DNA of 45,336 nt from Fragilaria crotonensis (lineage: Eukaryota; Bacillariophyta; Fragilariophyceae; Fragilariales; Fragilariaceae), in the NCBI GenBank assembly GCA_022925895.1, contig JAKSYS010000516.1, forward strand, positions 1 to 45,336, written 5' to 3'. The position numbers and the translations under genes are program-made. Shown here piece by piece: positions 8,930-42,730 of the stretch (positions are counted from its first letter, which is position 1; every line of letters begins with the position of its first letter). A model generated the notes under the pieces. The model made no database searches. It worked only from the letters and a program-made list of their open reading frames with translations, and had not been told where the DNA came from.

Positions 8930-10480
8930 GCTTGTTTCTTGTTGCTCTACTGTGCGTTACCCAGGTTTGCTATCCGCGCAATCACAACGATCGCAATCAC
9001 ATGATAATATGCAATATTGGTAAGGAGGCGCCGGGCGGGTGCCTCAAAGTCTTCGATGGACCAGTACATGTGGCACGAGTACTTCAGTACCGTAACTTCT
9101 ACTGGACGACTGCCATTACAACGCTCCGAATTTAACTGCGCACCGTGCCGTTCGAGAGGACAGAGGGAGTGGAATGAATTGAGTCTTGTCTAAATTGGCA
9201 AATTGGCCGACCCACCGTGTGAATGGTAGCAGAGACATGCAGGTTGTGTGTCCTCTCTATGCATAGTCGAATGCCCGATGTCGCATGTCTTGTGCTACCG
9301 GGTACCGGTAACCGGTACTAGTTCCACTTGTATTATTGTAATAGGGACATGTATGCTATAAATTCCTGCAACCTGCAATTATGATAGTCTGAAGCACATG
9401 GTACAACATCGCAACGGAACACATAATTTGAGTTGTTTGATTATATTTCTATATCTAGTGAGGAGGTTTTGCATGTTGGAAATCGATGCGTTGCAGATTC
9501 AACGCTCGGCTCGGGTGCGCCGGTACGATTCCTGTTAAGATCCTCCCCCGTGTCCCATGTTCGTGTCCCATTTCCCATGCGACACCATAATCCATGTGTA
9601 TATGTTATATGTATGTATATGGTATGCTGTTGGACCTAGTATGTGGTACTGAGTACGCCATACAAGTGCCCTAGTTGTACCAGGTACCGGTACGTTGGCT
9701 GTGACAGGCGTCGATACAATGAAGTGAATCGTGAATCACGGCCCTACAGTATGGATGAACTCCAACAGTGCGCAATAACTGTATACGGTAAACGGAGTAT
9801 ACTTATCAGCAGGAGACAGGTGGATAATGGTACCTGGTATATTGGATGATGGGGAGCTTGTTGAAGATTAACCACGTACTCCAGGACCATGGTCTACGCT
9901 GGTACCTGGTACATACTGACAAACCTCATGCGACCTCAGTTGCTTGGTCTCGCCCTTATCGCCAAATTGAATGAAGGATTCAATTATTGGAAGAGGAACA
10001 GAGCGTGAATTTTCCAGCAGGAACAGGAAAGGATATTGGAATCAAAATGTTGATTGACGATTCGTTTTGTGAAACGGAGTCAATGACAGACAAGCACACA
10101 AAGTCAGTACCAGGTACCAATAATTTTGGGTTTCTCATCAATTGAGCCCGCCTTCATGCAGCGGCGGGTGCAAGCTAGGTCTGAGGTTGACAAAGGGATT
10201 GATTAGTTGGTCAGAATTAAAGGTCTAGATACCTTCACAACCTGCTTTGATACATTCAACCTCATTGGGGAGTACTACATGCTGCAGGGCTCTTTTGTAT
10301 GGCAGTACATTTGATGATCTTCTTGTGATGATCTTGGAGAAGTTGACATTAAAAATGCTCTCAGACCTCCACATTGTGACAAAAAGGTGGAATAGACAAT
10401 TTGTTTATCAACAATAGTTGATGACCCGCTGGAGGAGTTTTCCTTCCTTTGCTCTCATTGCAATGGATGGTCTGTCCCTT
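8930..10480. other. Intergenic DNA up to the left end of the big transposon
   Basis: No gene recognised in 1.55 kb. Between about 9290 and 9910 there are many GTAC-centred words (GGTACC, TACCGGTA, GTACCAGG). The part from about 9960 to 10480 has short interrupted reading frames (for example LVRIKGLDTFTTCFDTFNLI on the plus strand, about 10205-10265) and may be a decayed coding sequence into which the transposon inserted. I could not identify it. Confidence 0.4.
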
Positions 10481-10505
10481 CATCAGAAGGTGGCGGGTTT
10501 TACAC
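10481..10505 (+). repeat. Left terminal inverted repeat, 25 bp
   Basis: Begins CATCAGAAGGTGGCGGG and ends TTTTACAC. Its exact reverse complement is at 22202-22226. The next inner base differs, so the perfect match is exactly 25 bp. Confidence 0.95.
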
Positions 10506-10857
10506 GTAACAAATTTGGTACACTGTACCGTTTTTTTTTAAGTCCAGTACAGTGCGTAATATTTTTTTCCACTGTAATATGAAAAGGTTTATGTAATATC
10601 TCTTGTATCTTGAATAATTTTTTTCGAGTCCAGTACAGCTGTGTACCCTCTTATGCTACACCCAGCATCCAATTGTTTCTGTACCTTGGCTGTTGATGTC
10701 ATAACATCTAGCTGTGGCTGTAAAACCCCTTTTTGGTCGGGTGTAACATCCATTTACGGTTCCTCCTGTATACAGTATGACAGTAGTTCAATAGTACAGT
10801 GCTCCACTAGTGCAGTTTGCAATACATTCAACGTGTGCTTCTTCCAACGAGTGCTAT

Positions 10858-12611
10858 TTATAACTCAATGAAGGCATTGACTACCGGTTGATTCGTCCTC
10901 TCCAAACTCCGCTGTAAAGCAGTGTGATCTGTCTCCCTCTCTTGGCCCATTCGTGCTCCAGCACCTCCAGCCTGTTGCCTCAAACTGTTCATCAGCCACT
11001 CCTCTGCGTCCCTTGCATTTCGACTCGCTCTGTCCTCTTGCACCATCTCACACAATACATTGAATTGGAGAATCCCCTCTTCAGTCCAGCCCCCATATTC
11101 GTTTGACGTACCACCATCTGTATGTGTGTATTTTCCCACAATTCGTTTAGACCTTGGGTCCCCCCTTCTGTCTTCGTGATACCTTTTGATCCACTTGTCA
11201 ATGTAGGCATCGTAAAGCAGCAACGCAAATGCCTCATCTGAAACTGTGACTACGGGTGCGCCCGTATCATTCGATTTTGCGTCAGATATGGTAGCCTTGT
11301 ACTTCTTCCTGTTACCCCATCCCCTCTTTCCACACACACATTCTAGTAGTTCACCTGCGAACCACAGGAAAGCCTCCTTTTCCTCCACCGTCTGCGACTG
11401 GCGAAGTTTGCAAAGAGTGTCCATCGAATATGGTGGGGGGATCCACCTCATCCACATGATTCTTGATCTTCAGCAGTTTCATCGCTGCTTCTTGTGCCGA
11501 CTGTTCGCATGTGCTCCGTTTTGTATTGAGGGCACCCATGACGATGGTCTTGTACATCCTCACAAACTGTGGTGTATCGGCGGGCTTCTCTTGATCAAGA
11601 ATCACCTGCATCACCATATCGAAGTATTCTTTACATGTTATGAACTTGACCCCCCGAAAGATAACTGTTTTCACCGTAACTTGTATGCGATCCCTGATGT
11701 TTTTCTTTGTCAATCCCTTGGCAGTTCTGTATGACATGGCGCGTCTCTCTTGTTGTTGTGGCAACAACGTCACTCCATGCTGTTCAATACCTCCACCTTC
11801 CTGCACTTCTTGCGCTGTCCATTCCTGCAAGCCATGGAGACCATTCCCATCTCCAACGAGTCGTTGTTGTCCGTCAACTTGCCTGCCTTGGAATGGATTT
11901 GAGGAGCTCCTGTTGTCAGCTCTTTGTTGGCCTTCACGTCTGACGCCAACTAGGGTATAGTCTCTGGATGGAAGCCCTCCATTGTTGACAACGTTCGCAC
12001 CAGTTCCAGCAACATTGCCGTCTCCAACCTGGCTGCCACGCCTGCTGTCAACAAGTGGATAGTCTCTGGATGGAAGCCCTCCATTGTTGACAACGTTCGC
12101 ACCAGTTCCAGCAAGCAACATTGCCGTTTCCAACCTGGCTGCCACGCCTGCTGTCAACAAGTGGATAGTCTCTGGATGGAAACCCTCCATTGTTGACAAC
12201 GTTGGCACCAGTTCCAACATTCCCGTTTCCAACCTGGCTACCACGTCCGCCGCCAACAAATGGAAAGTCTCTGGATGGAGGCCGTCCATTGTCAACAACG
12301 TTTGCAGGGGGTGCAACGTTCATATTTCCAATCTGGCCACAGGTTCTGTTGTCAACAATTGGAGGTCCTCTGGATGGACGCCCTCCATTGTTCCTTTGAA
12401 GTACAACAGGATCATCATCATCGTCTTCGTCACTTACGTTGCTGTCTCCCTCATGCGATGGCGTTTCGAGTTCTGCAGCTCTACTACTTCTTGTTGCTCT
12501 CGTGTTCACGTTGTTTCCTGCGCGTCTCTTCTTCTGCACACCACCAATCTGACCCACACACTCTGTTTCTGGGTCCTCGTTTTCTTCATTCTGCGTCCGT
12601 TTGTGCGCCAT
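10858..12611 (-). CDS. Transposon accessory protein with coding minisatellite, frame broken twice
   Basis: Starts at 12611 (MAHKRTQNEENEDPETE). A basic and acidic N-terminus is followed by four to five repeats of about 33 residues built on GTGANVVNNGG-PSRDYPLVDSRRGSQVGNGN. A linker with KGLTKKNIRDRIQVTVKTVIF comes next. The C-terminal domain contains EAFALLLYDAYIDKWIKRYHED and EYGGWTEEGILQFNVLCEMVQ. I recognise the latter style from uncharacterised diatom transposon proteins but know no function. Two breaks are seen. A 4-bp GCAA duplication (12111-12114) in one repeat unit is absent from its sister unit. An extra base lies in the run of six at 11435-11440. Correcting both gives 583 codons. 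By analogy with the tnpA proteins of CACTA elements it could bind element DNA. That is inference only. Confidence 0.65.
11953..12390 (-). repeat. Coding minisatellite, about 99-106 bp units
   Basis: Units start with TCTCTGGATGG-type sequence near 11961, 12062, 12167, 12267 and 12368. Spacing is 99-106 bp, equal to 33-34 codons except for the unit carrying the extra GCAA. Inner units are almost identical and outer ones are diverged. Each contains CCATCCAG on the minus strand, the core of the intergenic motif cluster at 13622-14110. Confidence 0.85.
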
Positions 12612-13616
12612 GGCTGCTTACCTAATGATTTCGTGACAGTACTTGTCGTTTGGGGATTTTTTCCTTATGGCCGATGCAGTTTTGAGTTTGATGTATGAGC
12701 CTTCCCGCGCACGTATCTGGTTTTGAATGATAGTGTACGTAGTCATGTTACACAAGACCTCTTGTCTGTTTGTGTAATATTGTATTTATAATGTATACTA
12801 TTCTACTTTCTGTAACCTGCACACAGTAACTGTAGTATGTCGTGTTTGCAACATGGTTTTTAAATTGTTTTCTACAGTGCTGTACGTAGCATGTACTGTT
12901 GTGTTTTACGGATGTTCGTGTTTTGAATTGCTGCGCATGAAAGATAAACTACTCCTGCATATGCATGCATGTAAATAATTTCTTTTATTGGCATTGTTCG
13001 TTAAGCACGCTTATATTGTTACATATGTACGATAAACGTGGTAAGGATGTCAGTATGTACCATGTAGGAAATCGAATTTTTATGTCCTAATAGTCCCACT
13101 ACATGATAATTTCATCTGTTGTACTGGCTGCTACATATAAAATGATGTATATAATTAATACAATTTGTTAACAAAGTGTATCCTGTGATGTCGCATTCGT
13201 TAAGTATGTGTATCTCTAAATTTTGGATGTCATGCAATTAAATCCCTTGTAGTAAATGTGTCATGTATATTAACATGCAAATGATGCACCCAATTTTCTG
13301 TTTCAAATAAGTGGTTCAATGATATATTCTGTACTGCGTACTCCAATGTATAGAATCTTTCTAGTTCCGTCCTATGTATTCCATATATAAAAATTCATTG
13401 CTGTCTGTAAAGTTTGTTGCCTTGCATGTAGCATTGTAGTAAATCAATTTCATGTTTATCCATTGTCGGAATGAAGTCCCACATCGCTGTCTTGTACATA
13501 TCTTGTTTTCTTTGGTATGTCACGTACTGATTCCCACCGTGAATGTTTTCTCGCACGTTTCCCGCAAAGTTTGCGAATGCTCTCACATCATCACTCAAGC
13601 TCGTCGATCTTCAAAG
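12612..13616. other. AT-rich non-coding interior of the transposon
   Basis: No coding sequence is recognised. The DNA is AT-rich with many TGTA and ATGTAT words. As the upstream part of the minus-strand accessory gene it may hold its promoter. No terminal or direct repeats were found in it. Confidence 0.45.
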
Positions 13617-13621
13617 CAATC

Positions 13622-14110
13622 GTTACCATCCAGTAACACTTGTTTTGTTGTATCTATTGTTGCCATAGTAACAAGTGCTTTGTTTTGTCCATTGTTGCCA
13701 TCCAGTAACAGGAGATTGAATACGAGGTGATAGGTACTGACGAGGATTCCTCCTTTTGAATTTGTCCTGCGTAAGTGTTGCTGTTGATTTGTTACCATCC
13801 AGTAACAATCTTTGGTTCTACACTCGCTCGATTCCAAAGTAGTGGCATTTCAACAAGCTTGTCACGCGGTTCGTTTGCTTATCTCGCCAGTGTCTGGGTG
13901 CTTTTGATTCGTTGCCATCCAGTGACGTTGATGTGTACCACAAGGGAAGAGATTGGCCACGAATCACATTCGTTGTATCCAGGCTTTGATTTGTTGCCAT
14001 CCAGTAATGATCACTTGCTGTGCAATTGAATGGCAACCGGAGGGAATCATGTTGAGATGTGTTGACATTTGTCTGCTTGCCTCAGAAGACATTCGTTGCC
14101 ATCCAGTAAC
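13622..14110. repeat. Seven copies of GTTRCCATCCAGTRAC
   Basis: Copies at 13622-13637, 13659-13672 (shortened, GTTGCCATAGTAAC), 13694-13709, 13791-13806, 13911-13926, 13993-14008 and 14095-14110, all in plus orientation, 35-120 bp apart. The ends GTTAC/GTAAC are inverted around a 6-bp centre, as expected for a dimer-binding site. The last copy ends 26 bp before the oxygenase start codon. The cluster is a candidate binding array for the transposase or accessory protein, or a regulatory array for the divergent gene pair. Confidence 0.85.
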
Positions 14111-14136
14111 TATGTTTACCTGCACTGAACGACATT

Positions 14137-17100
14137 TTGTCACCAGGGATCATGTCCCCATCTCCTTCGGATAACAAACAACGAGGAAAACGCTCTTCAC
14201 CACATCGGAAGAAGAGCGTGCAGCGAGACAGTGCGGGCGACCGCAAGCGCAAGGCCAAAGGTTACGAACGTGGTCGTGGTGGTGCGTCACGACGTCGCGT
14301 TTCTCGCGCTGTGTCTGATGTTGTGGGTGGCCGCACTTTCCCCGGTGAGCTCTCCCGTTACATCATTGCTGGGTACGAGAATCCCCGTGTCTTTCCTGGT
14401 GTGCCATCAACCAAAGCTGACGGCCAAACCAAGGGCAAACGCAAGGTCTTCGTCCCCAGTGGCGGACAAAGCGCCGCCGTTTTGTCCAAGGGCCTGCCGA
14501 GGCACGTATCCGCTTTTTTCACCGAGCGCTTTCTTCATTACCAGAAGGCACCGGATACTGCTTCTCTGTCTGTCGGGGGTGGTGTCCCAATTGGTGCCAA
14601 AATCTGCAAGACAACATTTGTTGCGAGTATTCACTTCGCGTTCCTTGATACGTTCGGAATTGATAACGTTACTGTGGAGCGGTGTGAACACATGCGTAGC
14701 ATCCAATACAAGACAGGAGTTGTGGTCGTCCCTCATGCTCTTGAGGTTGTTGTTCTAGACGCGGTGTTGGCACGGTCCCGAACACACCCGAAGCCACTGT
14801 GTAACACACGTGCCACTGTCGACAAGCCTGTCAAGATGCATGTCGATGACGATGCTCTCCTCGATCCATGTCATGATGCCCGTTTCAGGGCAATGGTGGT
14901 AGTCCTTCCCGAAGCTGGTGTGTTCTACTGCCACCGCGAACGCAGGAAAGCTTGCGTGGGAGTCTTGAACAGTCTCGTTCCACTGGACATGAACTGGCTT
15001 CGCACACTACGGAATGGCACTTCTCTGAAGAGGTTTGCTAAGAATGGATACATCACCCATCTCTGGGAAGGTGATGGCAACTGCATCTGGAAGTGGAAGG
15101 TCAACCGTGGGTCGCCTGCGTTCAACATACCTTGCAGTCAGTTTGCATCTTTGTCTTCCGCTGTCTTCCGCTTCAACAAATGTCGAAACAAGACTGTGTA
15201 TCACGTTCAACAATGTGCTGACGAAGATTCGCCACGTTTGCCGCCTGACTTTATTGATGGAGAGGATTGCTCTTCCACAATGAGTCGCAAAGAGCTTCGA
15301 CGATTGTACCTGATGAAGTACGTCCGGTCGCCATCGGCGCGAAGGGGTTGTCGTCATTATGTTGCGGGTTTCCTCCACCGCAACGTTGACCCAGAATCAG
15401 TTTGGGTCGTAGATGCAGAGATGGAGGGTGACGTTGATCTGAACGTATCAACACACATTCGCCACCCTAGTAAGGGGAATGATTCGGTTGCCCTTTTTCG
15501 TGATTCCATGGTTCAGGTCAGACACCTTCCTGCACTTGGTGAAAGAGCTGTTGCTCTGCTGCGAGACATACACCAGCACGCCACTTCTGTTCGTGAACGT
15601 CGAGGGTCGAGAGGCGTCAGGGGTAATCACGGTGACCACGGTTCCATGCATCCGGTTGGGACCCGAATAATGAAAGATCGCACTGGCCCCTGGAGAACTC
15701 GATATGTGACATCATCATCACCGCGCGAACAACCGGCTCTTGCAGCCTGTGTTCGTGCAGCCGCGCAGCTTGCATCGACGTCTGTTCCTGCTGTCCTCCG
15801 AGTGATGCAGGACATGGAGGATGATGCGGACCTCAAGCCTTCTGGGGGCATGGCCGGTGATGGAACATTTGCTCGCGTGGCGCACACGATGGATGTTAGT
15901 GTGGACTTGTCGAATGCATCACACTATGACGTCAACGACGCCTCGTCATCATTTGCCATCTGGACGGAAGATTCGCCGGGTACCACGAACAATTGGTATC
16001 TCGTGCTTCCTAATGTATTTGGTAAGAAAACTAGAACTGGTCGCACCTACAACGGTGTTGCGATTAAGTTGACTCATGGTACACTTATATCATGGGATGG
16101 CCGGCTGATCAGGCACGCCACATCAATAATGGACAGGAAGCCTGGTTGTCATGTTTATGGTACCTTTTTTGGTGCAAAGGCTGCAATTGTGCATTATGGC
16201 GTTCGACGTGCCATCGCTGCGGAGCGACAACGCCGTGCATACGCAATCGCGCGAAGAACTGTCGTGAACTGCGATGATGGTGAACCTATTGTTGATATAG
16301 TTCCGTCGCCTGAATCAAAAGTCATAGTGGACAGCGACGAAGTTGGCTTGGATGGCTCCGTATCTTCCGCGGAGTCGGACGATGACTCATGGATTGCTGC
16401 GTTGGGGAGTGACCTGCATCTCGGTGATGACGTACACTACGACGACGACGACAGCACTGTTGATGATGGCGTGCCTGTCTCTGATGCCGTTGAGGGCGAT
16501 CAGGTCTCCGATAGTGGAATTTGGGACGAGCCTGATATTGCTGCTTGGAGGATTCCTCGACGATCGTTACCCGAGGTGCTGGATGTTGATGATGACGAGG
16601 AGACTCATTCATCGTCACGATTGGGATCACCATCCAAATCCGGCGATGCATCCTCTGCAAAGTTGCTAAAGTCGCATGTGATTGCATCCGCTTTTGACAA
16701 GCATCTACCCGACTTGATGGCTCCAGGTACGGAATGTTGGAGTTGTGTGGCATGCCACTCACTGTGCATCGACGGTGGTGAAACTTCTTGTCGAGATGCC
16801 CTACGCTTTGTCAGCTCAGGTGGCTCCTTCCGTGGGACTGTGGATGCAAGGGAAACACGTCATCCGAATCAGATGCGCCTTACGAATCGACAGAGGTTGC
16901 AACCCTTCTGTCCATTCCTTGGAGGTTGGATTGATGGTAATCGGGTTATCATCCGTGTGTACTACCCGTACTTCCGTGTCAAAAATGGGGAGGTTGGCTC
17001 TCTCTTTGATGTCTTCCACCCACGAAAGGTCACTGCCTTCCATTTGATTCGCGCATCTCGTGTGTTGGTTCCATGTCCCCATCTCCAATTCCATTTCGAG

Positions 17101-18257
17101 GAGTTTTGGAAACTGTTGTTGCCAGAGTTCACGACGCTGAGAACTGGCATTGAGTGGGTTGATGAGGTGGCATGGTATTACATTCAGATGGTCAGGTGCA
17201 AGACAAGGTATCCGCACATCCTCTCGACTCCACCGGCCTTTGACACATGGATTTATGTCAACGACTACGATTGGGCTGAGTTCAAAAAAGCAACCTCTCA
17301 GAATGTCATGGTTGGCGTTTCCGGTGATGGTGAGGCGGATGCACGGATGGTTGCCATCGAATCCCTCACTCCCGGAACTTACCTTGGTGGGAAATGCATC
17401 TACTTCCCATCAATACGCCTACGAGAAGTCTTCGCAAGGAAATTTGAACCCTTTCTGCCTGAGGGTGCTCGAACTCATGCTGGCCAAGAGGAAAGTGATG
17501 GCTCCCTTCCCGCCCTCATGGAATTGACCATCAAAGTATCATGTACTACTTCATGGTCAAGGTGACTGACAGCGATGTCGCCCGTCGCGTGCTTCGGAAG
17601 TGCGATGACGATTCTGATGTGATGATGCGGGAGGCAAAAGGACACCATACCCAGTGGTCTCGCGAAGTAACCAGTGGGGCGCTGACGAGGTATGATGAGG
17701 ACGACGCCTTCTTCTGTTATGACCTCAACTCTGAATTGTACGACCGGCGTTTCCGTTGGTATGAACTCAGTAGGTTTGAAGCGGCGAAGGAAGTAGGTCC
17801 AACATTCCAATGGAAATCTCTTCAGAACCTGTCCAAAGCCATGCATCAGATCTTGACTTTGCGAAAGCCCCCCGGTATTCTTGGACTCAATGGGGATAGA
17901 CATGCAGCTTTGGCAACCGAAACGCTGATCGATGCCTTATGGGAAATGATGACATTCGGATTGAGGTTTGCGATGGTGTTCGACAGGATGTGTCTTTGTG
18001 TGAAAACAGCAATTCCGTGCCTGGCTTCTCCACAGGTTGGTGATCTTCTGTCTGCATTCGCATCAATGATCATAACAAGGGTGCCAGAAGTCGTTCCACG
18101 GTATGCCTTCGCCTGCGATGATGCATTCCTACTCGAGTCATTGGCACTGAACATGGTGCGCATTCTTCCCTTCAGCAATAGAGATGCTTTCGGTATCCGG
18201 GACACGTTTGCCAGGATACTGCCAAGACATGGGGTGCGACGCAGGAATGGAAGGTAG
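14137..18257 (+). CDS. Transposon-encoded large protein with TET/JBP-like 2OG-Fe(II) dioxygenase domain
   Basis: About 1373 aa after one joint near 17500-17515 (frame 1 to frame 3). The N-terminus is strongly basic (residues 5-60). At about residues 560-690 lies a double-stranded beta-helix signature. H596-Y-D598 supplies the first His and Asp. A GVAIKLTHG strand follows, and then GRLIRHAT with the second His at H660. The spacing GVAx3THGx11HAT is the same as I recall for the catalytic end of TET enzymes, and HxDxx(N/D) is also TET/JBP-like. The usual 2-oxoglutarate-binding Arg after the second His is not where expected: His672 is there, and R667 is a substitute candidate. An Asp/Ser-rich stretch (about 735-830) precedes a cysteine cluster C867-x2-C870-x2-C873-x3-C877, perhaps zinc-binding. 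The rest is unrecognised. The start could instead be the ATG at 14152. TET/JBP enzymes oxidise methylated or plain pyrimidines in DNA; that activity here is inferred. Confidence 0.75.
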
Positions 18258-18318
18258 TACATTTTATATGTTAGAGGACTACATGTTTTACATTCCAAAC
18301 AAGACTTGTTCTGATGTA

Positions 18319-21300
18319 CTATGTACGTTGTCGCTTATCTGTGCTTCCTCGATGTCTGGCAGATCCCGATTCTCCATCTCCAATGGTGGCTGCCTTTCTT
18401 CGCTTTCCAACGGTGGGCTTTCGGACAGCGCTCCTGGAACCCTTACGGCGACTGCGGCGGGAAGCTGGGGATGGGGGGATGATTCTGTCCGGTCTGTGGA
18501 AACCTTCATCTCCACTTTCGTCAGACTCTGCTTTCTTCTTTGTTATGACAATTTCCTTGTACTTTTGGTGAATGAACAAGTCCCATGTTTTCGACCATTC
18601 TGTTTGGGGAAGCATCATGAAGATGTACATTGCATTCGGGATGGTCTGACCATCATTTTTGTGGACACAATCACTGAAATTGTCGGCAACTGCGACAGTC
18701 GGTCTTTTTATCGAGTCGACGTGGACAAGATAGAGAATCGGTTGGAGGCTGTTGGGGATCAAATCTAGTTGAAACTTCCGGAATATAGATCGGTCTCCCT
18801 CTTCATCTGCTTCCTCCTCGTCATCGCCAATTCCCCCGGGCTCCTCGTCATCACCATCGTCTTCACTGTCGTCACCATCGGGGAGTACCTCGTTGTATGA
18901 TTCAATGACAGCATAGAAACCAGGGTTCGGGACAGAAACCTCTTGGCCAGAATGCGGAAGTCTTATCTTGGAGCCATTCGTTACGTTGCAAAGATTGAGG
19001 AATGCATGAATGCGTGCAGGGAAGAGATCATCGTATCCATGCCATTTAACGAGAGCGTAATCATACCAGGGTTTACCATGGTAACATGGATGAGCACGAT
19101 AGATCTGACCATCCGCCGACTTGTACTCTGTATGACAATGAAGAATACGTGGAGTCGTATGGGGAAGTACATGTTTTGCAAGACATGTTGATACGTGAGA
19201 TGTCAAGTGATAGTCCTCTGGAGAGGGATCGTCAGCCTTCTTCTTCTTTGATGCATTACGCTTACAGACGATGACACCGTCAACATCTTCTTCCAAAGAG
19301 AATCTCTTGCCCTGGAGCCGATGAGTGTCAAGCATCATTGTAGGGATTTGCAACATGTCAGTTATACTTGATGCGCACTTCCGGATTGCAAGATTTTCGA
19401 TGTAACGCATGGCAGCCTGGAGTGTGAACGTTCCTTGACGCTTCTGGGTATTGCGTGTTGTATCCTTTGAGATGGTTATATGGGCAGACTCCGCATAACT
19501 ACTGTTCATAACCTCAGGAACGCCAAAGTTGAGCATGTCTTCATCCATGTGCAAGACGAGATGTGTCTTGATTGTTGTATTTCCCATGGTGCCAGAAAGT
19601 CGGGGGGCAACAAACTTCAGCGATCGCATTAGGGACGACACTGCAAGCCCAGATCGGGAGACAGATAGACGCGAGATGCGACTTTGCTTAAGCCATGCAT
19701 GCCACTCGAGCAGGGAACTCAGAAACATTTTCCAGTCCTCGACAAAATCAGGGTTGCTGAGGCTCATGTCCACTTCAACTTCTGGCGTGTGAGATGTGGG
19801 CTTTGACAACGTCGACTTCGATGAATGATGCTTCCTTCGCTTCGACATCTTTGATGACTTGAAGATTTCCGAAAAATGAGTAGTATGCAACGAGATGAGC
19901 ATGATGAATATGCAACCGGCGTACTCATGTCCGGGGATGTTGGCACCCGATGTAAAACCTTTTGTGACCGTTGTCCTGGGAACAAGTCGATCACTTTGAC
20001 GACCTACGCGCCGGTTGATGTCCAACAGCAGATTATCATACCTCTTGCCGGACTCGGATGCCTTTCCAATTTGCTTGAAGAAGGAATCAAGAACATTCTT
20101 GAACCAACCCAGGAGGATCAAGTGAAGGATCTCCCCCCTGGACATGCACCAAAAATCCCACGATTGTTGTGCGCACCAAACCTGACCGAATCGAATGCAT
20201 TGATGAGATACTGTTGTGAATTGGACTTCAACTCCAAAAACTGTCTGTTGGTGACCATTTGGTTAACTGAATGGGGAGTGCGTCTTGCATATGCCCTGGC
20301 CTTTGAATAACCGGATTTATCGGTCGGACATACACACGAACGACAAAGCTGAGCAACAGTTGAGGTCCGAGATTGGTAATGACCACAAAGAGCATCATGG
20401 CCAACCGTATCTCCAACTATGAATGGAACATAAAGGTGGAGGTGAACAGGGAAAGACTTTCCACGGTAATGGAGGTTCCATTTCAAACCAGATTCCTGGA
20501 GATCGAGATACCCAGACTCGCGCAAAATGAAGTCAATTTGAATGTGATACTCATTCAGTCGGTAGCAGGCTTCCGAAACATGGGGAGGACCCACAATGGG
20601 GAGTGGTGTATTCGGTCTGACTTCTCCAGGTTGGAAAGCACGTTCCTTGACTGGAGTTGTATTGATGAAACCCAAAACTCTCATTGCTGCGGGGGGTTTT
20701 GCGGATGTCGTGCGCCATCAGTCCATACGATACGACGATGGGTTCAAGGCTTAGCTTTCCACCACCTCCGATGTCGCAGGTCGTCTTATCAATTGCAAGC
20801 ACACATGGAAGTAACATATCTTCAGCTTTCTTTATCAGCAAGTCATATGTTTTCAGGTAGGACTTGCCTGTGTTTATGTCACCCAAAACCGAACCACATG
20901 GTCGCGCAAAAGGGTTAACATCCGGATTGTCAGGGTCATGGAATATATAGTTCTCATCCCGGTTCAGCTCAGCACACGAAAGGAAAGAATTAAAAACAGC
21001 ATGGGCACTGAAATAAACGATATCAACCTGACAGTTTGAGTATGGGAGATAAAGCTGCTTCAACATGGGGGTCAAACCTTCAAAGTCAACACGATTTTGC
21101 AACTTGCCCATGACGGTCTTTCGAGAACAGATGGGGATGTCACGAAAGGAATGTCCTCGAGAGCATGATCTGACGGCCCACTTCATCACCTCATCAAACG
21201 CAATCATCGGACATCTCAACCTCTTCAACGTCTGAAGTAGGTCCACCTGGACCTCCTCTTCCAAAGAAAACGTTTGGAGGTTGAGACCGTCATCATCATC

Positions 21301-21852
21301 TCTCTTGGACCAAGCGTCACCAAATGTATTGGGGAGAGTGAGTGGTGACTCAGAATTGTCGGAAAATGGTGCAACATTGCGGTCAGGATGGTCGGAAAAT
21401 GGTGCAACATTGCTGTCAGGATGTTCCGATTCCTCGTTGTTCAACGTGGCATCCACAGCATCGGTAAATAATTGCTCCCGGTCATCGTCCAGATCCGAAA
21501 AAGTGGAAGTACCAAAATCATCATCATCGACGGGTAGACGTGCGTAGTTATTTGACTTCAAGGACGGAGGAGCATAAGAAACACCAGTTTGACAGGTGGA
21601 AACGGGAAGGTGATCGCCACTCTGCTGTGCTTTGTTTGTCATTGTGCCGTCCAACAAACTTGGATCCCCTGAGTAATCCAAAGAACACTGAGGATGACTC
21701 GAGAAATGACGGGAGAGTCCCATTGAACCAGCAACGACATATCGACCACAGGAGAGGCATTGCTCTTTCTCTGGTGATGACATTAGAACCTTTTTTGCAT
21801 TTCTCTTGCGTGCATTCTCAATCTTACGTGAAAGTTTTGCTTGGAGACTCAT
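18319..21852 (-). CDS. Plavaka/CACTA-type DDE transposase
   Basis: About 1177 aa after two single-base corrections. An N-terminal C2H2-like finger (CLSCGRY...HFSSH) is followed by an acidic linker. The RNase H-fold core shows a first-Asp segment LPCVLAIDKTTCDIGGGG and KLSLEPIVVSYGLM, then FGFINTTPVKER. A second-Asp segment VGDTVGHDALCGHY and a Cys cluster CRSCVCPTD follow. VRFGAHNNRGIFGACPG/GEILHLILLGWFKN leads to a probable Glu in IPGHEYAGC. A C-terminal YRAHPCYHGKPWYDYALVKWHG segment typical of these proteins precedes a Lys/Ser tail. The order matches Plavaka-like transposases (CACTA/KDZ-related). Breaks are an extra T at 20668-20670, inside FGFIN, and a missing G in the run at 20132-20138, inside ACPGGEILH. 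Both are homopolymer changes, so the enzyme may be intact in reality. It would cut at the 25-bp ends. Confidence 0.85.
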
Positions 21853-22201
21853 GATTGTTTAGACAACAAAATTAGAATGATGAGCTGAGATGGTGAAAAA
21901 AGAGGAGCTGTCAAATCGATGAAATTAAGATATCGCGGGTCCACGGGACATGAAATGTGAAGAGTACTTGAGGGTAGGGACTCGGATGTCTTGATGAGTG
22001 CAAAAGAAACAGTGCACACGTAACATAGAAATGTACAGCGCACATCTGGATTTGTGCTACCGTACCAGGTGGTGTACCAAAAATGGAACACCAACTGGAA
22101 ATGGGGTGTATTTACACTTAAATATTACAGTGACATATAGGTATGTAGAATTTGTAACAAAATTGCCTACTTTTGTAAAATAATGTACTACGAAATACTA
22201 G

Positions 22202-22226
22202 GTGTAAAACCCGCCACCTTCTGATG
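22202..22226 (-). repeat. Right terminal inverted repeat, 25 bp
   Basis: Exact reverse complement of 10481-10505. It is followed by TT, as the left end is preceded by TT. Confidence 0.95.
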
Positions 22227-23289
22227 TTGGTGTGCTGGCAAGCAGCATCAAATTTTCAACTGGACAAAAGCATACCTTGCATTATCTCATGCCCAGAGTC
22301 CTGGAAGGTAAATTTGTTGAATGCTTTAATCATAGCAATTGCAGAACCAAGTCATCATATATCTTGGCTGAGTCCCCAGGTCTTGTTAGAGTCGTGCTCA
22401 CTTAGCTAAGCAATCCAGGGGATGTATGCACTATTCAACAAGGAGCTGGTGGTTGTTGTTGACAGGGCTTGCCCAGAAAACTCTGATGAATCTTTTGAAC
22501 AAGCAAATTGCGAAGAACATTATGGATGTTTCCAGGTGTGATGCACTAGCATTCTTGTGGATCTCAATTGATGGACTTTTGCGCCTTTGAGGAAGCACAA
22601 GCAACGCTACAGAATTTGCACAATATTCTGATCCTCCTCCTATCTTTGTTGATATTGTTCATTCAGAAAACAGGCGACCCTTGCTTCTAAGAGCAGACTT
22701 CCACAGGAATAGTGTGTTGGCAAGGGATTTGGAGTGTTGGGTGCACTTTGGTTACTGGTGTCGCAGCCCAACAACAAGGGGACTTGTTTTTTAACATAAT
22801 TTCCGATGTTGTATGACCATTGAGAATATGATCATGAGAAGAAACCATCTTTCAATGCATGGGTGCTTCTGAAATGTGTCATTTGTATGGTCATTTGCTA
22901 CCCACCACCATCTAGTACCTTGTTGTTCCATTTATGTGGCTGCTACACCTGCATTGAATTTTATGGCAGACAATCAAATGAGTCATTATGAAGACAGAGT
23001 GGGATGACATGCTCCTAATGAATTACTTATTTAGACAGCATGCATTACACTTAGGTTAGGCTTCTTGAGAACAATGCAGGCATTGTTTTTTCCTGGTTTG
23101 TTTTTGTGCCATTCTCATCAAAAGTGCTGCAGTCATTCTACATGAGAAGTTTCCCTATGAAAACTCTCATTAAATCCCAACCTCATCTTCAATTTTATCT
23201 TCACCATATTCAGTCTCCTCCATTCATGATGAGATGATTCCTTGACAACCCAATCGGATCACTCAATAGTCAGAGTTCGCTATCCTCTA
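22227..23289. other. Spacer between two transposons
   Basis: No gene recognised. Short interrupted frames are present on the plus strand (22224-22409, then pieces to about 22800), possibly remnants of the sequence hit by the 11.7-kb element, but I could not identify them or join them convincingly to the left flank. Confidence 0.4.
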
Positions 23290-24544
23290 GTGTCTACCCA
23301 CCCGACGGGGTTAATTAACCCCATTTGGGGTTAATTAACCCCGTATTTGCTCATTACAGAAACTGCTCGCTATTACTTGCAAGTTGTCCGTTGGACTAGA
23401 AATTTGGGCAGTGGCTCAAGAACTGTATGAATGTGTATGGTTTCAAGGCACAGTATCTGAATAATGTTTGTCATTGAGAAACAAGAGCTTTTCGGCATCA
23501 TTTTTCTGTACCCTCGAATTTTTTCACGTCATTTCTGATTTTGTCCAGCTGTAGAAGTAATACCAGATTCTACGTGAAACCCTCGATTCTAACCCACCGT
23601 GAAGGCCTTCGTTTTGATCATGTTCTCGAAAAATTCAAACAAAAGTAAGGTGACCATTGTGTTTCAAATAGATTGGAGTATTGTTTCTAAACGTGAAACT
23701 TGTCCTAATTTTCTTTATTCAAGCGACAGTACTCAATTATAGAGAGACATCAAATCAGAAGAAAACTACGTAGAAGAATCGTGTAGAATATATACTGTAG
23801 TCTACGGTGGATGAATTGATTTCTGTCCCCATTCTTTTAGATCGTATGCTTCTTAAGATTGAAACAACTTATGTTATCATCATCTTCAGTATACTTCGAA
23901 TGGTTATGCAGCATGCCGCATATCTGACCAGCTTTAAGTATTCACCGTGGAAAATTGATGTGAAAGAGGAGCCCCAGCGGACAATTTCTAGACAGAAGTT
24001 GTGTAGAATATATACCAAGCTTTTCGAAAAAATTCACTACTTCGACAGGTTTTGTATGAACTGTCAGAAGATGATTTCGCCACACAATACTTAACGAGTG
24101 AGGTTGCCATATACTTCGATAAGCGGTCGGTCATCGGTCACTCAGGATGTTTGCTTGGATATCTCAATTAGGAAGAGCATAAATGAATGAAAATGGACTA
24201 CAAAAAATTAAAAACTGTTTTGACCATACGTAGAACATGTACCACACTCCACGCAAAATTGCATCCCTTTTGTCGGAGACTGCTTGGGGATGAAAAACTC
24301 AAGTATCGAGCTTTTCTTCAGATCAGTGACTTCCACTGAAGATGAAGAAATTGAAAATGGACCAAATGAACACTGATAAGTTGAGTAATTCGTTTCACTT
24401 CGTGAATGCAATTGGAACATCTTTTTTCAGTGGACCGCAGTATAAAATGAACAGAAAAGCGTCTTGCACACGTACGAAAATGATGGGGTTAATTAAGGCA
24501 AATGACGGGGTTAATTAACCCCATGGCCCCGGGTGGGTAGACAC
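23290..24544. mobile_element. Non-autonomous TA-flanked transposon, 1.26 kb (copy B)
   Basis: Ends are inverted copies of GTGTCTACCCACCCG, flanked by TA on both sides (23288-23289 and 24545-24546). Inside each end are copies of the 16-bp perfect palindrome GGGGTTAATTAACCCC: 23307-23322, 23327-23342 and 24507-24522, plus a degenerate copy at 24485. The interior has no transposase. Its longest frame (23807-24094, 95 codons) resembles nothing. It is a relative of 971-2030: same terminal GTGTCTA, same subterminal TTAATTAA, and an 18-bp identical interior word. The empty site would read CTCTAGAG. Confidence 0.75.
23307..23342. repeat. Tandem pair of GGGGTTAATTAACCCC palindromes
   Basis: Two perfect 16-bp palindromes separated by ATTT, themselves inside a larger palindromic arrangement. 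A third perfect copy is at 24507-24522. Probably a subterminal transposase-binding or hairpin-forming structure of the surrounding element. Confidence 0.85.
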
Positions 24545-24546
24545 TA

Positions 24547-25017
24547 GAGCCATAGTATATGCATGTATATGATACATATGATACTCCGAGTAGAGAGAAA
24601 GTACAAGGTAGTACAAGACGTGTCTTGCTATGCATGCTGTGTACTACAAATGCGAAAAACGAGTGTATGATATAAACGCCGTACAAGTACTCCGAGTCTC
24701 CGAGTACGAGTAGACCTACCGGTAGTTGTACTGGACAATTGTACCTTGTACTCGGAGTAGTAGACTCGACACGTTGTTGACGCAGCACTGTACGTGTTTT
24801 TACTGGAATACGTACGAGTACTTGATATTGTGACCTCAGTAAAACACGCGTTTGAAGTTTGAATACAAAAATCTGGTACTAGATAGTAGTACTGAAATAC
24901 ATACCAGAACTGTACCAGGTACTGAGTACACGTTGTGTGACCGAACACCGAACTATCTGGTGTCAACTTGTCGCACGTTGATTGTTCATTTCCTTTTACA
25001 AGTACCATCGATCCAAG
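24547..25017. other. Intergenic, 5' flank of galactokinase
   Basis: No gene. Dense in GTAC, ACTCCGAGT, TACCGGTA and AGTACT words, especially 24660-24960. The galactokinase promoter must lie here, but I see no defined element. Confidence 0.45.
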
Positions 25018-40736: not shown

Positions 40737-42730
40737 TTAGACATCAGGATTCTTCACCTTCGCTGCCTTCGTCGGTGCGACACCCATCTTGACCAGCATT
40801 CTAGTAAACTCCACAATATCAATTTGTCCGTTTCCATCCACGTCGTATGTGTCAAATAGTGTCTTGACAGCATCTTCATCAACAGAGAAGTTACGACGGA
40901 ATTCACGAGACGGCTCCGACAAGGTGGAGGCGGAGCTTCATCCAATTGAGCGGCCAAATATCGATTCAATCTCCATTCCACCTTGTCAATAAATGCTTCA
41001 GTCGAAAATCCGGATGGACCAGACATATCCTTGGTACCTTGACCATATCTGAAAGTGTTGTGAATTGCCCTTCGCAACGTTTCCGTGAAGTTGAGCACCT
41101 TGTCCTTGACAGCCTGCTTTTCGGAGCTCTCGGGATGAGCATCGGCATCGAGCATGGCGGCATGATTCATCGCACCAATCATAGCCTCAACCAAACCCAG
41201 GGGATTCAAAGACGTTTCTTGACCAGCCAAATGCGCATGCCAGAGATCAGACACAGTGCCGTGGGAGGCTTCGAATTCCTTGATAAGTCTGCCATCATCA
41301 GTGACACCAACGAGGTTAGAGGTGATGAAACCAGGAGAACGATGCACTTGAGCAATCTGATCAGTCAACATATCTCCGTCGTAGTTGTGAGCGGCCATTC
41401 CAAAACCGCCATCAGTCCAACGAATCAACTGCATAGTTGCAGCATCGGAGATGAGATGTTGCAGCTCCCCTCCGCATCTTTCCAGCAAGCCAGCTTTGAG
41501 GAACTGCTCCTTGTATTCAGCATCGAAGATTTCTTTCATAGTGGCCCAGAATCCCTCCTGCCACTTGAAGACAGTTTTCTTGGTAACCACGTAAGGAGTG
41601 ATGCCAGCTTCGAAGCAACGCTTGAAAAACAAATGAGCAAGCGGTTTGACATTGTCGTAAGGGTTGTGATAGACGACTACAACGTTGTTGTCATCCGTCA
41701 GCTCTCTCTTGTCGACAATGAATGGAGCGTCTCCATCGGACGGTAGATAGGTGGTCAACAACGTTCCGCGCCCAACTTTGTTCCAACCCGCTCCGTACTC
41801 TCCCCCAACAGCATGTCGCTCGAAGAAAACAGGCTTCTTGTACCCAAGTTCAATCCCATCAATATGAATTGTATCACGGCTGATGGTGATACCATTCCAA
41901 CCGCGTCGCATGGCTCCATTCGGAGATCCGTAACTCTTCGAGAGTCCCATTTCCTTCACTTGCAGGGCAGAGGGAGTAATGGTTGGTTCCTTGAAAATGG
42001 CACCAATTCGAGAGCCGGCTTCGACAGCGTCATGTAAGACTTTATCGTTGGAAGCATCGCGAGCCTTGCAGGACAAGTCGTATCGTTCCCAAGTCGACGT
42101 ATCGAAGTATGGCTCAATCCACTGCTTTACGATAAGATTGCAGGCATAGTTGGTCATCTCTTCTCCACTGATGTATACCATAGGTGGTGCCAGGACTTTC
42201 TGACCTGGAACCAGAGTCGACTTGAATCTGAAAAATGATTGGAATGGGCCATGATTGGAAGTGCCTGAAGGGCGAAATGAAAATGTGAGTCGTCGACAAT
42301 GGGATAGACTTTGCTCCGACACAGAGATTGCGAAAAAAGTCGATAGTGACGTCAACGAGCGACCGATAAAGGATTCTGGTTCGAAATCGCCTTAACGGCA
42401 TCGTGAAGATATCGGTGCAGATATGGTGATCAAGGATATGGGCACAGATGCTACGATCATACGAGTCGTAGCGATTAACAGCGGCATGACGATGCAAATA
42501 CAATCGCTTTGGAATGGCGCCGGTGGAAGGATCGCTTAGAAGAAAGACGAATCGAATTCGGTGCATTGACTTCCACCTGCAGAATCTCTCATTGGGATAA
42601 TTTTTATCTCCTTTTCTATCTGATAAGCTCCCTAGTAGTACGCATAGATGCACTCACAGCTAGGCGAGAAGGGTGATGCTCCGCGAACAGCCCCTTGGGC
42701 AGCGCGAGATAAGGCGATGCGGAACGCCAT
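40737..42730 (-). CDS. IDH: Homodimeric-type isocitrate dehydrogenase with C-terminal EF-hand
   Basis: Oxidative decarboxylation of isocitrate to 2-oxoglutarate, mitochondrial. Exon 1 (42730-42654) encodes a presequence MAFRIALSRAAQGAVRG. Exon 2 (42227-40737) encodes the enzyme: ISRDTIHIDGIELGYKKPVFFERHAVGGEYGAG, the IDH/IPMDH signature NYDGDMLTDQIAQVHRSPGF, EASHGTVSDLW and NPLGLVEAMIGAMNHAA. At the C-terminus a frame change near 40922-40930 reveals an EF-hand with loop DVDGNGQIDIVEF. With one base added there, and the intron 42653-42228 (GTGCAT...TTCAG) removed, the CDS is exactly 523 codons. A more canonical GTGAGT donor at 42657 would break the frame. An IDH with an EF-hand-like C-terminal domain has been reported from Phaeodactylum as an NAD+ enzyme, which makes NAD+ use and Ca2+ sensitivity plausible. 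Confidence 0.9.
42228..42653 (-). other. 426-nt intron in the IDH gene
   Basis: Acceptor TTTTTCAG before ATTCAAG (FKSTLVPGQ) is clear. The donor GTGCAT keeps the frame. GTGAGT four bases upstream is a better consensus but leaves the frame off by one. Unusually long for this window. Confidence 0.6.

Follow-up and report, generated by a model that had tools for sequence, protein, structure and literature searches.

Genes and features at the locus

The stretch of DNA that was analysed (45,336 nucleotides, hereafter the window) contains a DNA transposon that carries, in convergent orientation, a gene for a TET/JBP-like protein and a gene for a Plavaka-like transposase. The following features were located.

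10479..10480, target site duplication (TSD), left copy, TT; the insertion on contig C124 has TA instead
10481..22226, whole PlavakaB-type DNA transposon, 11,746 bp; homology to the C124 insertion ends there, with terminal inverted repeats (TIRs) at both ends
10481..10505, plus strand, left TIR CATCAGAAGGTGGCGGGTTTTACAC, matching the right end over all 25 bp
10858..12617, minus strand, third open region of the element, with near-tandem repeats of about 100 bp
13622..14110, plus strand, six repeat copies around CCATCCAGTAAC, upstream of the TET-like gene
14152..17562, plus strand, TET/JBP-like protein, 1137 aa from the first ATG to the end of the first frame
15739..16212, plus strand, TET/JBP-like core, residues 535-692, delimited by alignment A4 and by hhalign to phage Tet_JBP
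17499..18254, plus strand, C-terminal part of the TET/JBP-like protein in a different frame, found by BLASTP to an open-frame relative
18319..21858, minus strand, Plavaka-like transposase, with open pieces at 20554-21858, 20121-20717 and 18322-20262 in different frames
22202..22226, minus strand, right TIR, 25 bp, perfect match to the left TIR
22227..22228, TSD, right copy, TT

The initial annotation had described a single protein at 14137-18257, a model that had to be revised: the stop-to-stop ORF around the core spans 14110-17565, and the remaining 250 or so amino acids lie in another frame (17499-18254), where BLASTP aligned them with residues 1096-1336 of a relative encoded in one frame (49% identity, E 5e-73). 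The interval 15814-16206 is a single open frame within ORF 14110-17565. In the residue numbering used here, which follows a translation starting at 14137, the HYD motif corresponds to residues 596-598 (from nucleotide 15922), THG starts at residue 646 (nucleotide 16072) and HAT at residue 660 (nucleotide 16114), with a gap of 11 residues between THG and HAT. Both elements described beforehand, H596-x-D598 and the GVA-THG-x11-HAT segment ending in H660, were present as described. Their TET-like spacing, as proposed beforehand, proved correct, since PDB chains of TET2 show the same GVA-THG-x11-HAT-type spacing as the window protein.

Upstream of this gene, the interval 13622..14110 holds six of the 12 matches to CCATCCAGTAAC in the window (at most two mismatches; mean expected by chance in the whole window, 3.1). 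As a guess, these repeats are perhaps candidate transposase-binding sites or a promoter element. Two pieces of the third open region (10858..12617) were searched against Pfam and gave no match.

A PlavakaB-type transposon with defined ends

The ends of the element were established by comparison with contig C124, which bears an independent insertion and whose homology to the window ends at 10478 and 22230, with a precision of +/- 4 bp. Copies on contigs C183 and C265 occupy the same insertion site as the window on both flanks. For the C124 insertion, the rest of the assembly yielded no matching empty site. The first 24 bases of the TIR had 40 matches in the genome at two mismatches or fewer, versus none for a reversed control, and both genes were enclosed by paired TIRs on C466, C124, C183, C265, C153 and C122. 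PlavakaB transposons are defined, in the passages on them in PMC12730594, by CATCA..TGATG termini and a TSD of 2-3 bp; the element in the window has CATCA..TGATG ends and a 2-bp TSD. The gene thus sits in a DNA transposon with defined ends (10481..22226), in agreement with the earlier proposal that it was carried by one.

Paired TIRs located 2-3 kb apart on C571, C111 and C209 mark shorter derivatives of the element, of which the one on C571 contains a piece of the transposase; two of these derivatives are about 1.9 kb long. When the window element was compared with the C124 copy, 18 of 22 transitions fell in CpG, TpG or CpA (a raw count), and the CpG and TpG/CpA figures of the element are perhaps a hint of 5mC decay by deamination. 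Outside the element, at 23285-24549, we observed a MITE-like insertion of 1.27 kb with perfect inverted ends of 20 bp (CTCTAGTGTCTACCCACCCG) and palindromes (GGGGTTAATTAACCCC), nearly all of which is missing in contig C183, which runs across the site.

The transposase and its pairing with the TET-like gene

The transposase piece at 20554-21858 matched PF18759 with an E-value of 0.026, below the cut-off, and no transposase match in Pfam was obtained for the pieces at 20121-20717 and 18322-20262. PF18759 was found in eight of nine transposase pieces from relatives (E 0.0027 or better), one of them over the cut-off (2.9e-8) and seven below it; the Plavaka identity comes from these relatives, the window copy itself remaining below the cut-off. 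Against IMG/VR the window transposase gave no significant match.

A KDZ transposase was considered and rejected: Pfam, which also contains a KDZ model, gave matches to no transposase family other than Plavaka, and the ends are those of PlavakaB. The Plavaka transposase is described in the relevant passages of PMC12730594 as having no similarity to KDZ. The pairing with a KDZ-type transposon that had been suggested for this locus was accordingly replaced by one with a Plavaka transposon having PlavakaB ends.

The association of both genes recurred in the genome. After merging, the genome had 100 places with the core and 84 with the transposase; 34 of the core places lay no more than 10 kb from a transposase place, compared with 2.7 expected at random, and the same convergent gene order was observed in 32 of these 34 pairs. 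The count of core places includes most, not all, matched rows, small extra pieces of places already counted having been left out. The other 66 core places had no transposase match within 10 kb, in some cases perhaps because the copies are broken or too divergent for the one transposase query used.

A conserved gene family in the genome

The window protein matched 51 pieces in the same genome (62 Mb, 881 contigs), and two divergent relatives used as queries matched 119 and 103 pieces. A core alignment of 29 rows was built from open-frame pieces picked by hand from more than 100 matched pieces, without L077, which is cut short, and L086, which is cut short and near-identical to L075; the 16 divergent pieces were likewise chosen by hand, mostly by open frame. 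Alignment A4 comprises 27 of the rows, without the near-identical copies L078 and L080, and alignment A1 comprises 15 of 26 segments.

Although core identity to the window copy falls as low as 42% among the relatives, residues H596, D598, D601, W620, P625, W653-D654-G655-R656, R659, H660, T662, G675, F677 and K681 were identical in all 29 rows. The exact letters of the motifs are partly specific to individual copies (residue 646 is T in 13 rows, 647 is H in 26 and 661 is A in only two), and the frame conserved across the alignment reads G-x-A-[IV]-x-L-x-x-G-x11-H-x-T-S, where L, G and S each have a single exception. Residue 604 (nucleotides 15946-15948), close to the presumed active site, is Ser in the window copy and Gln in the other 28 rows. 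The median dN/dS was 0.17 (range 0.037-0.367; 78 usable of 351 pairs); purifying selection is acting on the TET/JBP-like gene.

Profile comparisons relate the core to Tet_JBP proteins

No significant match was obtained for the window protein, its core, A1 or A4 in Pfam (PF12851 included), PDB sequences, IMG/VR or GTDB contigs, nor for the window proteins in PHROGs or the window core in phage records. The silence of Pfam weighs little, because NgTET1, a proven TET, itself fails to match PF12851. Searches of the genome with PF12851, PF20515, PF05063 and PF04082 returned nothing; as the controls were also silent, these zeros are uninformative.

Phage Tet_JBP proteins were gathered with NgTET1 as starting point. 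In an hmmsearch of 680 sequences with the family profile, gp26 of Nonlabens phage P12024L (L068) came out on top with an E-value of only 0.15, and the remaining Tets ranked among shuffled sequences. L068 is a true member of PF12851 (E 5.9e-27), and the family profile matched it in register and ungapped over 44 residues, from before HxD through YFxLP.

When the 27-row core was aligned by hhalign with 13 phage Tet_JBP proteins, a score of 36.3 was reached (E 1.6e-5, probability 79%), where E-values, here and below, hold for a single comparison, about half a dozen target sets having been compared and the winning phage group having been assembled after L068 stood out. In this comparison none of 100 column shuffles reached the score (mean 13.8), one of 100 shuffles in four-column blocks did (39.2), and the reversed profile gave 9.7. 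The score was 32.2 (E 8e-5) against all 22 phage proteins, a value that was reached by none of 100 column and none of 100 block shuffles, and 38.8 (E 6e-6) against seven distant phage rows from which L068 and its near relatives had been excluded; single distant phage proteins gave 17.4-34.4. Taken separately, the two subfamilies scored 34.6 and 31.3. Masking of the triad left a score of 28.8, and a longer region gave 36.4, with none of 100 shuffles reaching it. The shared register covered HxD, xxD, GF, YFxLP and the distal His.

Among the controls, pieces of the element's own transposase scored 8.7-12.8, pieces from the N-terminal part of the TET/JBP-like protein 13.1-13.7 and prolyl-hydroxylase-like dioxygenases 12.9, whereas the phage Tet group aligned with that same dioxygenase set at 42.0, a detectable relation. 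The actinophage Tet group alone was not detected (11.5). Initial profile comparisons, in which the Tet set consisted largely of actinophage proteins, gave no significant result (E 0.77, then P 0.21), and neither did an early comparison with a prolyl-hydroxylase-like pair. In a PSSM window test at the distal His, 11 of 12 Tet targets, all except L068, scored positive (p 0.035 or better) and both prolyl-hydroxylase-like proteins negative; at HxD, only L068 among 11 Tet targets gave a signal (p 0.008).

Homology of the core family to Tet_JBP, which is visible by profiles only, is in our judgement highly probable. The opposite case, a transposon protein that has no relation to TETs and shares their motifs by chance, would fit the weak single-sequence and HMM scores and the block shuffle that outscored the real profile (39.2 vs 36.3), but we hold it to be very unlikely given that the profile scores lie far above those of most controls and are in register from HxD, xxD and GF through YFxLP to the distal His.

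Proposed iron and base sites are conserved, the putative co-substrate site is altered

The following residues of the core were compared with those of known TET enzymes.

15922..15930, plus strand, H596-x-D598, proposed Fe(II) ligands, 29 of 29 rows, aligned with HxD of phage Tet_JBP
15937..15939, plus strand, D601, counterpart of NgTET1 Asp234, which reads N4 of 5mC, 29 of 29 rows
16102..16104, plus strand, R656 of the invariant WDGR, speculative substitute for the absent co-substrate Arg, 29 of 29 rows
16114..16116, plus strand, H660, proposed third Fe(II) ligand, 29 of 29 rows
16150..16152, plus strand, H672, equivalent of NgTET1 R289 by our own alignment reading; H, N, D or K in the family, never R

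The HxD...H triad that binds Fe(II) in TET/JBP enzymes was found in all 29 rows, aligned with that of phage Tet_JBP. According to the structural passages of PMC7854593, N4 of 5mC is read by Asp234 in NgTET1, Asn1387 in TET2 and Asp350 in CMD1. This position corresponds to the last one of HxDxx[DN]; phage Tet_JBP proteins have D or N there (21 of 22), and every row of our alignment has D601. R224 and R289 of NgTET1 are described in the same passages of PMC7854593 as strictly conserved Args for 2-oxoglutarate. The Arg of the last core strand, present in 22 of 22 phage proteins, was found in none of the 29 rows: by our own placing of this strand, the R289 position is occupied by H (20 rows), N (7), D (1) or K (1), and the flanking residues 671 and 673 are Arg in none. 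There is also no conserved Arg just before H596, where residues 591-593 are L, S/A/G/V and N, the placement of R224 being less certain. With the triad and D601 invariant and the Arg absent, the protein appears TET-like at its iron and base sites but not at its co-substrate site. The invariant R656 and R659 are, speculatively, candidate substitutes for the co-substrate Arg. Of the TET/JBP-like dioxygenase domain proposed in the initial annotation, the relationship stood, by profile-profile comparison, while the 2-oxoglutarate Arg expected of such an enzyme is absent from 29 of 29 rows.

The altered site bears on what the protein might do. A catalytically dead TET-like scaffold, kept to assist the transposase by binding DNA, would account for the absent Arg and for the recurrent association with the transposase; we consider it quite unlikely, since a scaffold would not need three iron ligands, and these are identical in 29 of 29 rows despite drift to 42% identity, a set in which dead copies are under-sampled because the rows were chosen for open frames. 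Alternatively, the protein could be a TET/JBP relative with a double-stranded beta-helix and Fe(II) that acts on another substrate, such as a histone, the transposase or RNA. Two NgTET1 residues, the Arg for 2-oxoglutarate and the His that binds the base, are not conserved in our own alignment reading, which points in this direction, as does the rest of the large protein, for which neither Pfam nor PHROGs contains a known relative. D601, the invariant counterpart of the base-reading Asp/Asn of TETs, argues against it, and so does a profile that matches Tet_JBP and not the prolyl-hydroxylase-like dioxygenases; we regard such a substrate as unlikely. It is reasonable to infer instead that the enzyme edits DNA base modifications.

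Host genome and methylation background

The window also encodes an isocitrate dehydrogenase (40754-42391), which matched PDB entry 6lkz with 798 bits, 6ixl with 586 and all others with at most 181. The yeast and human enzymes matched at about 165 bits. 6LKZ is the enzyme of Phaeodactylum tricornutum and 6IXL that of Ostreococcus tauri, as given in the text of PMC7460673. This one gene, of the diatom (Phaeodactylum) type, favours a stramenopile host over a fungus, in line with what had been claimed for this DNA.

The C5-methyltransferase profile PF00145 matched 13 pieces in the genome, all over the cut-off, and the five ORFs retrieved, two of which are near-identical, all matched PF00145. With such putative C5-methyltransferase genes, 5mC is possible in the host. 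These ORFs (L118-L122) lie on C869, C871, C399, C111 and C826, and one of them encodes a protein of 669 aa whose N-terminal region is long. Seven pieces in the genome matched the AlkB-type profile 2OG-FeII_Oxy_2 (PF13532).

Discussion

Fungal PlavakaB transposons carry a TET/JBP gene of the PE type (Kojima, 2025, PMC12730594, in the passages on these elements). The element described here resembles them, as far as that text goes, in its CATCA..TGATG ends, 2-bp TSD, Plavaka transposase and TET/JBP-like second gene, and also in that the TET likeness of the PE type surfaced only by HHpred and structure comparison (PMC12730594). The passages on TET-carrying PlavakaB in that source name fungi only, with two Agaricales species for Plavaka, and the fungal PE type has HxE where the present family has HxD; the two were likened by description, not by sequence.

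KDZ transposons, too, are said to carry TET/JBP genes (work attributed to Iyer in 2014); the shared trait is a transposon bearing a TET gene, the transposase here being Plavaka instead. With Tet_JBP proteins of PF12851 such as L068, the family shares HxDxxD, GF and YFxLP without gaps and a distal H followed, after one or two residues, by T; it differs from the phage proteins in having H, N, D or K in place of their Arg (22 of 22) and in lacking a Pfam match. CMD1 of Chlamydomonas is an algal TET homologue with an HxD...H triad and the Asp of HxDxxD (Asp350), but it uses vitamin C as co-substrate and keeps the alignable Args, according to the passages on it in PMC7854593. In the open literature on Plavaka, oomycetes and stramenopiles, no TET-carrying transposon outside fungi appeared among the matches listed, as far as their excerpts go. 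The excerpts of the Ectocarpus transposon paper describe giant KDZ and EnSpm elements with no mention of a dioxygenase, and the passages on Plavaka in Amoebidium and Auxenochlorella do not mention a TET gene.

We propose, with a probability of roughly 60%, that the element is a cut-and-paste transposon of the PlavakaB type and that the product of its second large gene, a divergent member of the wider TET/JBP DNA dioxygenase kinship, counteracts silencing by base oxidation. The enzyme would bind the DNA of its own transposon, flip out a methylated base and oxidise it, using Fe(II), O2 and a co-substrate, and the transposase and TIRs would thereby escape methylation silencing. The base would at first guess be 5mC, because C5-methyltransferase genes occur in this genome; 6mA or thymine might also serve. 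Fold, iron binding, substrate, co-substrate and the anti-silencing role are all features that we infer, and among the conceivable roles anti-silencing by base oxidation seems the likeliest. A bolder version, in which a transposon-borne TET/JBP branch outside fungi has replaced the 2-oxoglutarate-binding Arg, uses another co-substrate or binding mode, in the way of CMD1 with vitamin C, and writes an unusual base of its own rather than merely erasing 5mC, strikes us as doubtful.

TET genes on fungal transposons were known already; what appears to be new is a conserved TET/JBP-related gene on PlavakaB in a non-fungal-looking genome, with a probably altered co-substrate site. If our proposal is true, this would be a second lineage of TET-armed transposons, strongly conserved and with about 100 core places in a 62-Mb genome, and it would bring with it a divergent new enzyme family. 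The absent Arg raises the question of whether TET-type chemistry may run on another co-substrate, and anti-silencing through DNA base oxidation would be a wider strategy of transposons.
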